In this document: one piece after another, positions 22,307 to 57,528 of the stretch
Position numbering within the stretch: the first letter of the stretch is position 1
Layout of the letters: each line of letters opens with the position of its first letter
Assembly (NCBI GenBank): GCA_947581855.1
Contig: CANPVZ010000006.1
Span: 62,001 to 126,000 of the forward strand
Reading direction: 5' to 3'
DNA length: 64,000 nt
Source: an uncultured Phocaeicola sp.
Lineage (GTDB): Bacteria; Bacteroidota; Bacteroidia; Bacteroidales; Bacteroidaceae
Program-made: the position numbers and the translations under genes
Notes under the pieces: model-generated
Told to the model about the DNA's origin: nothing
Seen by the model: only the letters and a program-made list of their open reading frames with translations
Database searches by the model: none

Positions 22307-23458
22307 TTATTTAGTGATTAAAATGTGTCTGTCTTCAATTTCGAACCGGAGTCCGGTAGTTCGTTCGTAACTGTTCAGTAATATCCGGATATCTTCGTGT
22401 CGATATAGTTGTCCCGATAAGCGGATGTGCCGGATATCATCGGAAGCAAAAGAAACCTTGAAATTGTACCAGCGCGAAAGGGTGGTCATAATTTCTTCTA
22501 ACGGTTGTCCGTTAAAGATGAACAGGTGATCTACCCAGGCTGTATAGATAGAGGTGTCCACCGTGCAGACAGTGATGATACCCTTTTCCTGCTCATAAGT
22601 CAGTTTCTCCGAAGGCTTTATTTTCGTTTCTTTGCCTTCCGGGGTGGTAAATCCGATACTTCCCTCTACCAATACGGCGGCGAGAGGTGATTCGGCATAA
22701 TTAGTGATGTTGAAACGTGTACCGTACACCTTGATGTCGCCTTGAGTCATTGACACGATGAACGGCCGATTGTTGTCTTTGGTAACTTCAAAAAAAGCTT
22801 CTCCTTTGAGGTATACTTTGCGCTCGTCTTTTCCGAATTTTTTGGGGAAACGTAATTCTGTCTGAGAATTCAGCCATACGGAAGTGTTATCATCCAGTTG
22901 ACAAAAGAATTCTTCTCCGGCGGGAATAGACAGGGTATGGAATTCTGGTTTGGCCGGTTTTGTTTGGCGGTCATCTTCAACGTATATGGAATCGATGAGT
23001 TTTTTTACTTGTTTGTTATTTTGATTCAGTTGAATCGATTCTCCGTTAGCAAGTGTCAGGACGGCTCCTGTTTTGCCCGGTTGAATTACATGGGCGGTTT
23101 TCTTTAGCGGTTCGGCCTCCGGATAGGAAGTCTTGTACAACGTAACCGAAAGAATGAGCAGTGTCACAACAGCAGCAACGCTTCCTAACCATGCGTAAAG
23201 ATGTTTCCGTTGGTTGGGTTTCTCATGGGGGGGGGTAATTTTTCTTCTGAATCTTTCAGCCATTTTTTGCCCATATGCTTCTTGTTCCAGTTCCAGAATC
23301 TGCGATGTTGCTTGCAGACTCTTTATCTGGTTGAATAATGCTACATTGGCTTTTGAGGCTTTCAGCCATGCGTCCAACTGTTGTTGTTCAGTTTCGGATA
23401 AGGGTTGTCCCAAAATTTTTATAGCAATCAGCCGTGATATATTAGCAGGTGTTTTCAT
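22307..23458 (-). CDS. FecR family anti-sigma factor
   Basis: Cytoplasmic N-terminus, single TM, FecR domain (NTSVWLNSQTELRFPKKFGKDERKVYLKGEAFFEV). Confidence 0.93.
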   Translation of the reverse strand: MKTPANISRLIAIKILGQPLSETEQQQLDAWLKASKANVALFNQIKSLQATSQILELEQEAYGQKMAERFRRKITPPHEKPNQRKHLYAWLGSVAAVVTLLILSVTLYKTSYPEAEPLKKTAHVIQPGKTGAVLTLANGESIQLNQNNKQVKKLIDSIYVEDDRQTKPAKPEFHTLSIPAGEEFFCQLDDNTSVWLNSQTELRFPKKFGKDERKVYLKGEAFFEVTKDNNRPFIVSMTQGDIKVYGTRFNITNYAESPLAAVLVEGSIGFTTPEGKETKIKPSEKLTYEQEKGIITVCTVDTSIYTAWVDHLFIFNGQPLEEIMTTLSRWYNFKVSFASDDIRHIRLSGQLYRHEDIRILLNSYERTTGLRFEIEDRHILITK

Positions 23459-23543: not shown

Positions 23544-24104
23544 TCAAAGAGATAGAAAAAGTAAAAGCAAGAGAAAATCTTCTTTAGACAGATATTCGGA
23601 TAATTGTTTTAAAGCTCTGTATTTTATAGTTTTAACCGTGTTGATACTAATATTTAGTGCATCGGCAATTTCATTCATATTATTTTCTTGCAGGGTCATA
23701 AGGATTACTTTTCGACTTTGCGGAGTCAGCTTTTGTATGGCTTCTGCAATAAGGCATGAACTCTCGGCTTCAATCATGTGCTCGATAAACGTCTCGTTTG
23801 AGGCAATATTCAGATAGTCTAACGTGTCTTTTTCCTGATCGTTTTGTTGATAGTAAGTCCAGTTATCAATAATTACATTCCGAATAACCGTAAAGAAATA
23901 GTTCCGGGGTGATTTTACCGCACCGATAGTTTTCCGGTGAGTCCAAAGCTTGATGTAAGCCTCCTGCAAGAAATCATCAATGGTTTCCTTATTGTCTACA
24001 TAGTGACTGGCAAAAACATAAAAGGAGGAGGAATTTTGTTTAATAAATTCCTGCATGCAATGTTCGTCCCAATCGGCAAGATTTAAAGGAATGTTTTTAC
24101 TCAT
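23544..24104 (-). CDS. ECF RNA polymerase sigma factor
   Basis: Region 2 (ETIDDFLQEAYIKLWTHR) and region 4 (LTPQSRKVILMTLQENNMNEIADALNISINTVKTIKYRALKQL). Confidence 0.93.
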   Translation of the reverse strand: MSKNIPLNLADWDEHCMQEFIKQNSSSFYVFASHYVDNKETIDDFLQEAYIKLWTHRKTIGAVKSPRNYFFTVIRNVIIDNWTYYQQNDQEKDTLDYLNIASNETFIEHMIEAESSCLIAEAIQKLTPQSRKVILMTLQENNMNEIADALNISINTVKTIKYRALKQLSEYLSKEDFLLLLLFLSL

Positions 24105-52226: not shown

Positions 52227-53105
52227 GTGTTTCGGCTAGATATAAATAAAATAAGGCTCTTTTTCCGTAAGGACAGGGAGTCTTATTTTCGTTTATATAA
52301 GATTTTGGGATTTTATCCCCGTCAACTTCGTTATTATCAGGAAGCTTTGTTACATAAATCCTCTTCGGTACGAAGTGAAAAGGGACGCCCTTTAAACAAT
52401 GAACGGCTGGAGTTTCTAGGCGATGCTATTCTCGATGCCATCGTTGCCGATATTGTTTATAAACATTTTGATGGGAAACGGGAAGGCTTTCTTACCAATA
52501 CCCGTTCCAAAATCGTGCAGCGGGAGACGCTGAACAAGGTGGCTGTAGATATTGGCCTCGATAAACTTATCAAATATTCTTCACGCATCAACAGTCACAA
52601 CAGCTATATGTGCGGCAATGCTTTCGAAGCGTTAATTGGCGCCATTTATCTTGACTTGGGCTATGGTTATTGTATGCGTTTTATGGAAGAACGTATTTTG
52701 CGCCAGTATATTAATTTGGATAAAATGGCTTATAAAGAAGTGAATTTCAAATCTAAATTAATTGAATGGGGACAGAAAAATCGTATTATGCTAGAGTTCC
52801 GTTTAGTGGAGCAAAGTAAAGAGGTGAGCAGTCCGGTGTTTCAGACAGAAGTATTGCTCGAAGGTATCTCTGCCGGGCAGGGAACGGGTTACTCTAAGAA
52901 AGAGAGTCAGCAAATTGCTGCCAAACAAGCCTTGAATTCTTTAAAGAAAGATACATTTTTCTTAGATTCCATATTTGCTGCCAAGCAAGAACGCTTGATT
53001 GCGGAGGCCGAGCACTCGGAAGAAGAGTTTATATCGGAGGACCCCGTTTTATTATCATCAAAAGATTTGTCTGAAGCGGAGGCTTTGGATGACGCTGAGT
53101 TTTAA
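52227..53105 (+). CDS. rnc: Ribonuclease III
   Basis: NNERLEFLGDAILDAIVADIVY; dsRNA-binding C-terminal domain (FKSKLIEWGQKNR...GYSKKESQQIAAKQAL). GTG start. Confidence 0.95.
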   Translation: MFRLDINKIRLFFRKDRESYFRLYKILGFYPRQLRYYQEALLHKSSSVRSEKGRPLNNERLEFLGDAILDAIVADIVYKHFDGKREGFLTNTRSKIVQRETLNKVAVDIGLDKLIKYSSRINSHNSYMCGNAFEALIGAIYLDLGYGYCMRFMEERILRQYINLDKMAYKEVNFKSKLIEWGQKNRIMLEFRLVEQSKEVSSPVFQTEVLLEGISAGQGTGYSKKESQQIAAKQALNSLKKDTFFLDSIFAAKQERLIAEAEHSEEEFISEDPVLLSSKDLSEAEALDDAEF

Positions 53106-53548
53106 CCTTTAATCCTATTTCGATTTTAATTCCGACCTAAATAAAGAATCGAAGGCAATATGTCGAAGTGTTTTATGTTTGCTTTTTCTGCATTAATGGT
53201 AGAATTCGTCACAGTTAAAAACAAGTAATCGGAATTTTTCCGTTCTATTATCAAATTATAAGTATCCTAGTTTTTACATCTTATCAAAAAAGGCTTCAGT
53301 AATTTAATCGGTTTATTTGTCTGTCTTGAGCTTAAAAGTTGTTCGCTATTTAGGAATCACTATATTAAAAGGCATATTCTTAAAGAAGAAAATTATGAAT
53401 ACATATATACCTTGTGAAAGTAGTTTATCCGATAAGATGAATAAGGAGAGAAAAGGTAGGATTGTTGAAGAACCAAGCGTAGAGTATGCTAATAATTCTG
53501 ATAGTATAAGATGTTTATTAGATACTCTACGTGGTAATCTGAATTAAG

Positions 53549-54415
53549 TTATTCTGTCGGAATCAATATATTTTCGCTAAAGTAGTTAGCATTTTGCTCT
53601 GTAACCTTCATTCTGTCTTTATGGATGAGTTCAATGACAGCAAAGTCCTCCTCATACCATTCTCCATCCCATGTATATTGGATAATTCCCTTTGATATAT
53701 CTTTCCATCTCCATTTTGCAATATCGGAAGATCCATCGTGGTAGTATACTACATAGGTACCCGCTTTGGAAATCAATACATGGGTAGCATCTCCTTCTTT
53801 TATGACTTCTTGTGGATTATAGATTTCATCACGAATAGGTAGTCCATTCTCGTATTCAATTTCGTGGTTAGAAATAATTTTCCACTTTCGAAATAGATTG
53901 TCTGTAAACTGACCTGAAGCTACTTCCTCTCCTTTTTCTACTTTGAACAAAACAGCGGTGCTGTTTGTAGGAGTAAGTTTAAAAGAAGAAATGGTGTTAC
54001 CGTTGTAAACGATTACAAGAGTTCCATAACCTTGAAGCATCAAAGTGTTATTTTTTGCTATGGTATAAGTTCCGGTAAAAACGAGTGTTTTATCCGAACG
54101 TGTACTTTTCAAGGCTTTACTGTGCAAAGTTTTGGCAAGATAAGCCGGAGTGTTAGCTCTGTTTTCTTCATTGTTGTTTTGTTGCCAACCGATTTTGGCA
54201 ATAACATAATTGCCATCTGCAGTGAGTTCGATAAAATCGTATTCACCGGAGTCTTTTACATTGTATTTTCCACTGATGGCTTCCATGGTTGCGTTTGTCG
54301 TTTGTCCCTTGCCATCGTCATCATCATCGTCATCAGAACAACCGACTAGAGCAGTGCCTGCACATACAATTAATAACATAAGGTAGAATACCTTGTCATA
54401 AAATAGCTTTTTCAT
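53549..54415 (-). CDS. Secreted lipoprotein with lipocalin-like repeats, function unknown
   Basis: Lipobox CAGTALVGCSDDDDDDDG; beta-rich repeats. Confidence 0.6.
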   Translation of the reverse strand: MKKLFYDKVFYLMLLIVCAGTALVGCSDDDDDDDGKGQTTNATMEAISGKYNVKDSGEYDFIELTADGNYVIAKIGWQQNNNEENRANTPAYLAKTLHSKALKSTRSDKTLVFTGTYTIAKNNTLMLQGYGTLVIVYNGNTISSFKLTPTNSTAVLFKVEKGEEVASGQFTDNLFRKWKIISNHEIEYENGLPIRDEIYNPQEVIKEGDATHVLISKAGTYVVYYHDGSSDIAKWRWKDISKGIIQYTWDGEWYEEDFAVIELIHKDRMKVTEQNANYFSENILIPTE

Positions 54416-54793
54416 AAATTGAGAAGTTTGTTTTGTCTGCGAATTCCTTGCGCAAAACGTGATTTAAATTGTAATTTATTAAAGATAACCTTGAAAATGA
54501 GGAACTGTTTGTGTACTATGTCAATACAATAAACCATCTTCTTAGATATCTTAATGACAGTTCGATTTAATAATTTGTATTCTTCAAACGGTTTCCGGCA
54601 ATTTGCCGGTCATTTAGGAAGGAAACAGAGTTTATTGTTTTGAAATTTGTGATAAAAGTTATTCTACTGTCGGAATAAGCGGATAGAAGTAATGACCTTT
54701 GTACATACAGAGAATCAGATTTGCGGAATGTTTTCATACTTTTTTATTTTAAGAAAAGGCGGGAACCATTCAATGCTTATTTCAGCTTCAGGT

Positions 54794-54895
54794 TACCGCC
54801 AAGTTGCCTTACATATAAACAAGCATGAACAGTTCACGCCTAGAAGGCGTGAACTCTTAGTTTGCTTGTTCTCATATGTGTGAATATTGGCGGTA
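54794..54895. other. Four-arm ~102-nt interrupted palindrome
   Basis: TACCGCCAA..ACATAT..AACAAGC..AGTTCACGCC-tagaa-GGCGTGAACT..GCTTGTT..ATATGT..TTGGCGGTA. Confidence 0.85.
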
Positions 54896-54985
54896 TTCGA
54901 AGCTGGAGAACAAAAGCTAAAAGCTCAAGTATCTTTTATAAGTATGAAACGGAACGCTCTCCCTTTCGTTGTTAACAAATTAATG

Positions 54986-55039
54986 GGAAGAAACAACCTT
55001 TTTGAGAGCCTTGGCTCTCCGTGTTAAGGCTTTTCTTCC
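54986..55039 (+). terminator. Terminator-like hairpin
   Basis: GGAAGAAA..ACCTT..GAGAGCCttGGCTCTC..AAGG..TTTCTTCC followed by T-rich CTTTTTATTTTG. Confidence 0.6.
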
Positions 55040-55217
55040 TTTTTATTTTGTAATATTATAATGAACAGATTTCATATCTGTCGGCCACAAAGCTAGGGAC
55101 TTCTCGCTTAATTTCAAAATTTTGGAATAGAATATTTTATTTAAATTTTATCTACTAAGCTTCCGCAAGAGATGTGGAAAGTTTCGAGTTTTGTGATTTT
55201 ATACAAAATTAACTAAT

Positions 55218-55253
55218 GGGGGGGGGGTAAATCATTCGCTTATATTATCTTTG
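55218..55253 (+). promoter_or_regulatory. G10 homopolymer (55218-55227) plus -7 box TATCTTTG (55246-55253)
   Basis: aactaatGGGGGGGGGGtaaatcattcgcttatatTATCTTTG; 18 nt between last G and the -7 box, so the tract occupies the -33 position. Confidence 0.6.
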
Positions 55254-55278
55254 TGGGGTAATGTAAAAAACTTTTGTT

Positions 55279-55365
55279 ATGTCTTTTGATACAGTAGGGG
55301 AGATAGTTTGTCTTGTTGCAGCATTTATTCTTATAGCTTTTATATTAGTGATGTCTGAGAAATGA
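55279..55365 (+). CDS. 28-aa single-TM small protein MSFDTVGEIVCLVAAFILIAFILVMSEK
   Basis: ATG to TGA; hydrophobic core IVCLVAAFILIAFILVM; preceded by a TAnnTTTG box. Below the ORF-track length cutoff. Confidence 0.5.
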   Translation: MSFDTVGEIVCLVAAFILIAFILVMSEK

Positions 55366-55396
55366 CATATTTTGATAGAACGGTATAGCATAAAAA

Positions 55397-55441
55397 ACGC
55401 CATGTTCCCGAGAATTCCTCCCGTTTGAACACGACGTTCTG
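55397..55441. terminator. Hairpin between small ORF and nadB (convergent)
   Basis: AACGccaTGTTC...GAACAcgaCGTT. Confidence 0.5.
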
Positions 55442-55460
55442 AAAATATTCTTTTGTTATT

Positions 55461-57032
55461 TTATTTTTCAGCGTGCGGATAATCAATGGTATAATGCAGT
55501 CCGCGGCTTTCCTTACGTTCCATAGCCTGGCGCGTAATTAAATAACCTACGTTAATCATATTGCGCAGTTCGCAGATGGCTTTGGATGCTTTACTGCGTT
55601 TGAAGAGACTTTCCGTTTCCTCGTACAGTATATCCAGACGCACCCATGCACGTTTCAGGCGAAGATCGCTGCGTACGATGCCTACATACGAGCCCATAAT
55701 CTGGTTCACCTCTTTCATGCTTTGGGTAATTAATACCATTTCTTCGTTGGAAGTGGTACCCTCATCGTTCCATTCCGGAATTTCTTCATTGAATTCGTAA
55801 CGGTCGATAACACTTAAAGAGTGTTTGGCTGCCGCATCGGCATATACCACTGCTTCGATGAGTGAGTTGGAAGCCAGACGATTGCCTCCGTGCAGACCCG
55901 TGCATGAGCATTCGCCAACGGCGTACAGGCGGTTGATGGACGATTCGGCATTCAAATCTACTTTGATGCCTCCGCACAGATAGTGGGCGGCAGGAGCTAC
56001 CGGAATATAGTCTTTCGTAATGTCAATTCCCAGACTTAAACACTTTTCGTAGATATTGGGGAAATGTTTCTTGGTTTCTTCAGGATTTTTATGGGTTACA
56101 TCGAGGTATACATGGTCGTCACCCCGAGCTTTCATTTCACTGTCAATGGCACGTGCTACTATATCGCGTGGCGCCAGAGAAAGACGCGGGTCATATTTTT
56201 GCATAAATTCTTTGCCGTCCATGGTGCGGAGTACGCCTCCGTAACCTCGCATAGCTTCGGTGATGAGGAAACAGGGACGGTCGCCCGGATGATAAAGGGC
56301 TGTGGGGTGGAACTGAATGAATTCCATATCTTTAACCAAACCTTTGGCGCGGTAGACCATGGCAATACCATCGCCTGTGGCAACCAGCGGATTGGTTGTA
56401 TTGCGGTAAACGGCGCCCACTCCTCCGGTAGCCATTAAAGTTACTTTCGAGAGGAAAGTATCCACTTCGCCGGTATCTTCATTCAGGATGTAAGCTCCAT
56501 AGCATTTAATGCCCGGCGTGTGGCGGGTGACAATGATTCCCAGATGATGCTGGGTAATGATTTCAACGGCAAAGTGATGATTGAAAATAGTGATGTTAGG
56601 ATGTCCTTTTACGGCTTCTATCAGGCTTTCCTGTATTTCAGCGCCTGTATTGTCTTTGTGGTGCAGGATTCTGAATTCGGAGTGCCCGCCTTCCCGATGC
56701 AGGTCAAATTCCCCTTTTTCGTTCTTGTCGAAGCTTACTCCCCAATTAATGAGTTCCCGGATTTGTCCCGGAGCTTCCCTTACCACTTTTTCTACGGCGG
56801 CGCGGTCGCTTATCCAGTCTCCGGCAATCATCGTGTCCTCAATGTGTTTGTCGAAATTGTCCACTTGCAGGTTCGTAACGGATGCTACACCACCTTGCGC
56901 AAAATAGGTATTGGCTTCTTCGAGTTCCGTTTTGCAGATAAGTGCAACGGTACCTTTCTTGGCGACTTTCAGAGCGAAGCTCATTCCGGCAATACCTGAG
57001 CCGATTACTAAAAAGTCATATTTCTTAATCAT
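55461..57032 (-). CDS. nadB: L-aspartate oxidase
   Basis: MIKKYDFLVIGSGIAGMSFALKVAKKGTVALICK...TYFAQGGVASV...GGVGAVYRNTTNP...HFPNIYEKCLSLGIDITKDYIPVAPAAHYLCGGIKVD. Confidence 0.96.
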   Translation of the reverse strand: MIKKYDFLVIGSGIAGMSFALKVAKKGTVALICKTELEEANTYFAQGGVASVTNLQVDNFDKHIEDTMIAGDWISDRAAVEKVVREAPGQIRELINWGVSFDKNEKGEFDLHREGGHSEFRILHHKDNTGAEIQESLIEAVKGHPNITIFNHHFAVEIITQHHLGIIVTRHTPGIKCYGAYILNEDTGEVDTFLSKVTLMATGGVGAVYRNTTNPLVATGDGIAMVYRAKGLVKDMEFIQFHPTALYHPGDRPCFLITEAMRGYGGVLRTMDGKEFMQKYDPRLSLAPRDIVARAIDSEMKARGDDHVYLDVTHKNPEETKKHFPNIYEKCLSLGIDITKDYIPVAPAAHYLCGGIKVDLNAESSINRLYAVGECSCTGLHGGNRLASNSLIEAVVYADAAAKHSLSVIDRYEFNEEIPEWNDEGTTSNEEMVLITQSMKEVNQIMGSYVGIVRSDLRLKRAWVRLDILYEETESLFKRSKASKAICELRNMINVGYLITRQAMERKESRGLHYTIDYPHAEK

Positions 57033-57129
57033 GTGAATGGTTTTATCTGCTTGCAAAACTACTAAATAACTCAATTTAGTGATACTTTTTAAGTCATTTA
57101 ATTCGTAAAATTCGTAACTTGCGGGCAAA

Positions 57130-57528
57130 TTGAAGATGATGGACAGGATATTTCACGCACGAGTACCTTTTTACATGTTTATTTTTATCGCTTTGGTGGG
57201 TGCCATGGCGTTACTTTTTCTCTGGAAGATGATGCCTTTATGTGGCCTGGCTATGTTGCTGCTGTTAATTGTGGCCATAGAGCGGGTAATACATACTACC
57301 TATACGATTACGACCAAGGGGTTGCTCATTGTTTCTTATGGGCGTTTTCAACGGAAAAAGGAGATTTCCCTTCAGGAGATTAGCAGAGTAGAGAAGCTGC
57401 GTAGTTTCCGAATCGGGCGTATGTGTCTGGTGGAATATTTGCTGGTTTTTTATGGCAATGAGAAGCATGTGACGGTGATACCTGTCAAAGAGGATGAATT
57501 TTTGGAAACGCTTCAAAAAAGGAGATGA
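57130..57528 (+). CDS. PH-domain (bPH) membrane protein
   Basis: Two TM helices, then TTYTITTKGLLIVSYGRFQRKKEISLQEISRVEKLRS. Confidence 0.75.
   Translation: MKMMDRIFHARVPFYMFIFIALVGAMALLFLWKMMPLCGLAMLLLLIVAIERVIHTTYTITTKGLLIVSYGRFQRKKEISLQEISRVEKLRSFRIGRMCLVEYLLVFYGNEKHVTVIPVKEDEFLETLQKRR

Follow-up and report, generated by a model that had tools for sequence, protein, structure and literature searches.

The G10 tract at positions 55218-55227 (+) of the window, the 64,000-nucleotide stretch of DNA analyzed here, raises two questions. Is the tract a promoter switch thrown by slipped-strand mispairing, and does the promoter serve the short membrane peptide encoded downstream? Genome comparisons suggest that the tract belongs to a set of about 57 poly-G contingency tracts in its genome and favor, with moderate confidence, a slippage-driven promoter switch. 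Phase-variable promoters of this kind are well supported as a class by sequence, and the window tract is likely to be one. A real peptide product is somewhat less probable than its absence.

The tract, the promoter box and the open reading frame

The G10 tract, a putative slipped-strand contingency element, has a T on either side. An A-run precedes it at 55205-55208 (+; -13 to -10), slightly outside the usual position. The tract is followed directly by TAAA at 55228-55231 (+), the 3' flank shared by most of the 57 own-genome tracts in the flank statistics described below; the full flank here is TAAAT. Eighteen nt 3' of the tract, TATCTTTG (55246-55253, +) matches the Bacteroides sigma-ABfr -7 box, TAnnTTTG; this consensus and the -33 element of sigma-ABfr promoters are described in PMC7366714. 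Another 25 nt on, an ATG at 55279 opens a 28-aa ORF (55279-55365, +; MSFDTVGEIVCLVAAFILIAFILVMSEK) with one hydrophobic segment, the candidate product. Tract, box and ORF are all as the original prediction described them.

The same prediction held that slippage would alter the -33/-7 spacing, and this part fails. The G's themselves span about -30 to -39, where sigma-ABfr promoters have their -33 element, with their 3' end 18 nt before the box, and no separate -33 TTTG is present at a usable distance 5' of the tract. The distance from the last G to the -7 box stays constant, so gain or loss of G's would move the upstream DNA and not the -33/-7 gap.

Downstream, nadB (55461-57128, -) is convergent with the 28-aa ORF. 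An inverted repeat followed by T6 on the minus strand (55390-55432, -) lies between them and is a probable nadB terminator; it is evident by direct reading and was not detected by a simple scan. An Rfam search of 53000-57200 at E≤1 returned no match.

Poly-G tracts in the genome

The source genome (3.62 Mb, 39 contigs, 88% complete) is apparently an incomplete draft. It contains about 57 distinct tracts of at least G9 (76 overlapping G9 matches). Two G/C runs of nine or more are in the window, G9 at 23227 and G10 at 55218, and Markov simulations of the window predict 0.25, 0.075 and 0.025 such runs at orders 1, 2 and 3. The G/C run lengths in 414 kb around the tracts are bimodal (G5, 85; G6, 7; G7, 0; G8, 1; G9, 39; G10, 17; G11, 1); these 414 kb were selected because they contain tracts; the counts at nine and above therefore stand for the whole genome, and the gap at G7-G8 is not due to the selection. 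A/T runs in the same DNA decay smoothly in length. Within the peak, 67% of the tracts are G9 and 29% are G10 (n = 58), and the Campylobacter poly-G phasome has 53% and 26% at these lengths (PMC6321876). The set therefore has the excess over chance and the discrete length peak of SSR (poly-G) contingency loci.

The second window tract, G9-TAATTT (23227-23235, +), is on the antisense strand within the coding region of a fecR gene (22307-23458, -) and leaves this gene in frame (ON). This fecR adjoins a sigma-factor gene (23544-24104, -). The longest tract seen is a G20 with a TAAAT flank in congener G006 (L206:1504). Viral contigs have five matches to the tract motif. No duplicated contig ends that differ in tract length were found within the assembly.

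The genes with coding tracts encode SusC/TonB receptors, FecR anti-sigma factors and an AraC regulator, and several belong to capsule-type clusters. In SusC/TonB genes the tract directly follows the signal-peptide segment or falls within the N-terminal portion; in fecR genes it is internal. By a simple criterion, the reading frame is continuous across 13 of 25 sense tracts and 3 of 7 antisense tracts (16/32 overall), and the rest are shifted. In the SusC genes L096 and L119 the signal peptide before the tract and the receptor after it are in different frames; in L111:13721 both are in one frame across the tract. The set thus contains ON and off copies inside ORFs, and its targets are surface structures, as in SSR contingency loci. 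The 55218 tract itself is intergenic and has no such target.

Capsule-type clusters at L114 and L115 (own genome, C9:116000-144805), L129 and L131 carry poly-G tracts. There are up to nine per 23 kb, within and between genes, in frame or not.

Promoter tracts

A TAnnTTTG box lies 12-23 nt downstream of 10 of 45 intergenic tracts, with 0.37 expected (maximum of 4 in 500 shuffles). A reverse-oriented box is found 10-18 nt from 7 of the 45, with 0.20 expected (maximum of 2 in the shuffles). The tract-to-box spacings cluster at 16-21 nt in the forward class, in which the tract covers -33, and at 13-15 nt in the reverse class, in which it is in the spacer. These tracts thus occupy a constrained position within promoters, another property of SSR contingency loci, and the window tract, at 18 nt, is in the middle of the forward range.

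These features suggest how the switch could work. The tract would gain or lose G's by slipped-strand mispairing, and each change in length would rotate and displace the DNA 5' of the tract with respect to the core promoter. Transcription from about 55260 would then switch, being stronger in some cells and weaker in others, and the transcript would carry the candidate single-helix peptide of 28 aa and meet nadB head to head. The phase-variable promoter of the original prediction is thus sustained insofar as the poly-G tract is of the slippage type, occupies a promoter position and is part of a genus-wide set with contingency-like coding loci; its 28-aa product is the weak part, since it lacks homologues. 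Most promoter tracts precede lipoprotein, SusC and outer-membrane genes of normal length, 30-190 nt downstream, and 55218 precedes only 28 codons, which counts against a switch in the window.

Most similar to the window case is L111:10659-10667, a promoter tract (G9, 16 nt, TATCTTTG) before a 60-aa ORF.

The candidate microprotein

No homologue of the 28-aa peptide was found in 60 relatives, where the only other match is partial (56%) and inside a long ORF (E 0.096), and the peptide has no Pfam match. Downstream of nadB, congeners have neither the ORF nor the tract. The homologues under purifying selection that would mark a conserved membrane microprotein are therefore lacking. In Markov sequences, an ORF of at least 28 codons starts within 60 nt of the start site in 12.6% of cases, and one with a hydrophobic segment in 0.17%, a value obtained post hoc; in the window only 4 of 355 short ATG ORFs have such a segment. 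On these grounds the 28-aa ORF may encode a real product, at slightly less than even probability, and the microprotein is unproven. Otherwise the promoter would yield a non-coding transcript or be a relict.

The principal alternative is accordingly a phase-variable promoter without a microprotein, which would make a short non-coding or nadB-antisense transcript or be left over from a lost surface gene. It is a possibility of roughly one in three or a little below. Its transcript would face nadB, and the surface-gene targets of the other promoter tracts fit it, since only a homologue-less ORF of 28 codons is found here; the rarity of a hydrophobic ORF just after a -7 box (the post hoc figure above) and the short ORF behind the promoter tract at L111:10659 argue for a peptide instead.

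The shared flank context

Most tracts share the context A-run...G9-10-TAAA irrespective of the coding strand. Of the 57 own-genome tracts, 43 have T at the first position 3' of the G's, 49 have A at the second and 43 have A at the third (binomial p≤2e-12 each), and 33 have A at the fourth. A is also over-represented at -8 to -10, and binomial p values across the flank positions run from 8e-4 down to 2e-18. AAA occurs within -13 to -6 in 25 of 39 TA-flanked own-genome tracts, compared with 10/57 and 12/57 in control intervals of the same flanks. The G4-6 runs in the same DNA have no flank pattern. The motif GGGGGGGGGTAA occurs 36 times in this genome versus 4 for its reversed control, and in congeners 26 versus 2, 19 versus 1, 10 versus 0 and 8 versus 0.

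The TAA flank is present in 20 of 25 sense-coding, 5 of 7 antisense-coding and 11 of 25 intergenic tracts. Selection of TAA as a stop codon after the tract is rejected as the sole cause: antisense and intergenic tracts have TAA as well, and an in-frame stop cannot explain these cases. The 14 of 25 own intergenic tracts without a TA flank imply that not every intergenic tract need be functional; they could form a separate population, such as T8-9G9 runs. L093:3730, L097:6208 and L109:4560 have T8-9 followed by G9 and no TAAA, possibly a second kind of intergenic tract.

One further reading of the flanks, which appears unlikely, is that a machinery recognizing them creates the tracts or holds them at 9-10 G, in addition to selection on passive slippage. 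It would recognize the A-run about 9 nt upstream and TAAAA directly downstream, about two helical turns apart. If this were true, a sequence-specific process would install the switches of a single bacterial genus, whether in sense, antisense or promoter positions. The fixed flank offers a handle on what makes a tract mutable.

An inert G10, one that arose by chance or mutation and does not affect regulation, is quite improbable. The unflanked intergenic tracts and the lack of a promoter box at most intergenic tracts are what it would predict. It does not account for the set, since the order-2 expectation above, given per 64 kb, compares with about 57 tracts genome-wide, nor for the window tract, which has both the flank and a box at the class spacing.

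Conservation and distribution

Orthologous tracts are kept between species at 70-81% DNA identity with differing lengths or frames (L122/L178, L119/L182, L120/L190 and L112/L186). L122 is G10 and off, and its ortholog L178 is G9 and ON; L119 is G9, and L182 is G12. In the promoter pair L110 (G10) and L179 (G9), both tracts are 21 nt from the box, and G002 and others have no tract at this site. The set thus shows the between-species length differences at orthologous sites that are typical of SSR contingency loci; 55218 has no ortholog. Conserved position with differing length or frame argues for long-term maintenance of the tracts and against an artefact. A sequencing or assembly artefact from poly-G read tails, which the draft state of the genome would allow, is very improbable, since long ORFs continue in frame through tracts, assemblies made independently have them at the same orthologous positions, and the near-closed congener G008 (3 contigs) has them too.

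Within the genus, only this genome has the 491-bp region at this locus. None of 14 congeners has a counterpart of the tract, its flanks or the ORF, so the 55218 locus is without an evolutionary test. SDR homologues were considered as a tract-free ancestral site and are too distant (39% at best).

Context-bearing tracts are common only in some species of the genus (G000, G007, G009, G008, G002 and G010). There are 0-3 in 22 named Bacteroides, Phocaeicola, Parabacteroides and relatives, and at most five in each of 118 other Bacteroidales genomes. The tract set is largely confined to this genus. As far as MutS1 is concerned, loss of mismatch repair is rejected as the cause of the tracts, since all 15 genus genomes have this protein.

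NadB is 92% identical to Bacteroides stercorirosoris NadB and only 84-89% identical to NadB of congeners, which possibly reflects transfer or an odd genus boundary.

Comparison with known switching systems

Homopolymer switches in promoters are known from Neisseria, in genes of the porA, opc and nspA type. As there, the homopolymer here is within the promoter and its length would tune promoter strength. Unlike there, the promoter is of the Bacteroidota type (-7 TAnnTTTG), and the tract is over -33 in the forward class or in the spacer in the reverse class.

The Campylobacter jejuni phasome resembles the present set in its many G9-G10 tracts in surface-structure ORFs and some promoters, its ON and off copies and its length peak (PMC6321876). 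It differs in phylum; here the targets are SusC/TonB, FecR and capsule genes, the A-run...TAAA context is shared, and each of the 15 genus genomes has MutS1. Judged from sequence, the set is a poly-G phasome in Bacteroidaceae, a variant of known poly-G contingency loci, and the window tract is probably one of its promoter switches.

Bacteroides invertons likewise switch SusC, capsule and surface genes stochastically (PMC12632263), and an invertible promoter of this usual kind would suit the same sort of targets. It is a very poor explanation of 55218, where no inverted repeat pair flanks 55218-55253 and the proposed mechanism is a change in tract length.

Accounts of phase variation in gut Bacteroidales deal almost exclusively with DNA inversion. 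No report of homopolymer phase variation in this order was found in the open-access literature, an absence that is not proof. A poly-G phasome of Campylobacter size would add a second layer of switching on glycan receptors, anti-sigma factors and capsule. Such switches would escape inversion-finding software and could easily be taken for pseudogenes.

A neighboring leader RNA

Upstream of the tract, 54751-55010 (-) is a copy of a conserved, structured, multicopy 5' leader RNA. Its covariance model has matches in 39 of 81 Bacteroidales relatives. The number per genome reaches 21 (about 15-21), and a hairpin matched on both strands contributes two to it. The leader has no Rfam match. A probable promoter for this copy, TAGCTTTG at 55095-55088, is separate from the G10 tract. 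In nearly all of the 20 copies with flanks read (L264-L283), a gene starts directly after the leader, often one for a secreted protein or lipoprotein. Two mutually exclusive helices share GAGAACAAG, and four sequences have a coordinated three-way change. The 3' end is terminator-like, GGCGGTAACC...GGTTnCCGCC-T6 before the ATG, with a helix only 73% paired across the alignment. These features make the leader a candidate attenuator or riboswitch-like element.
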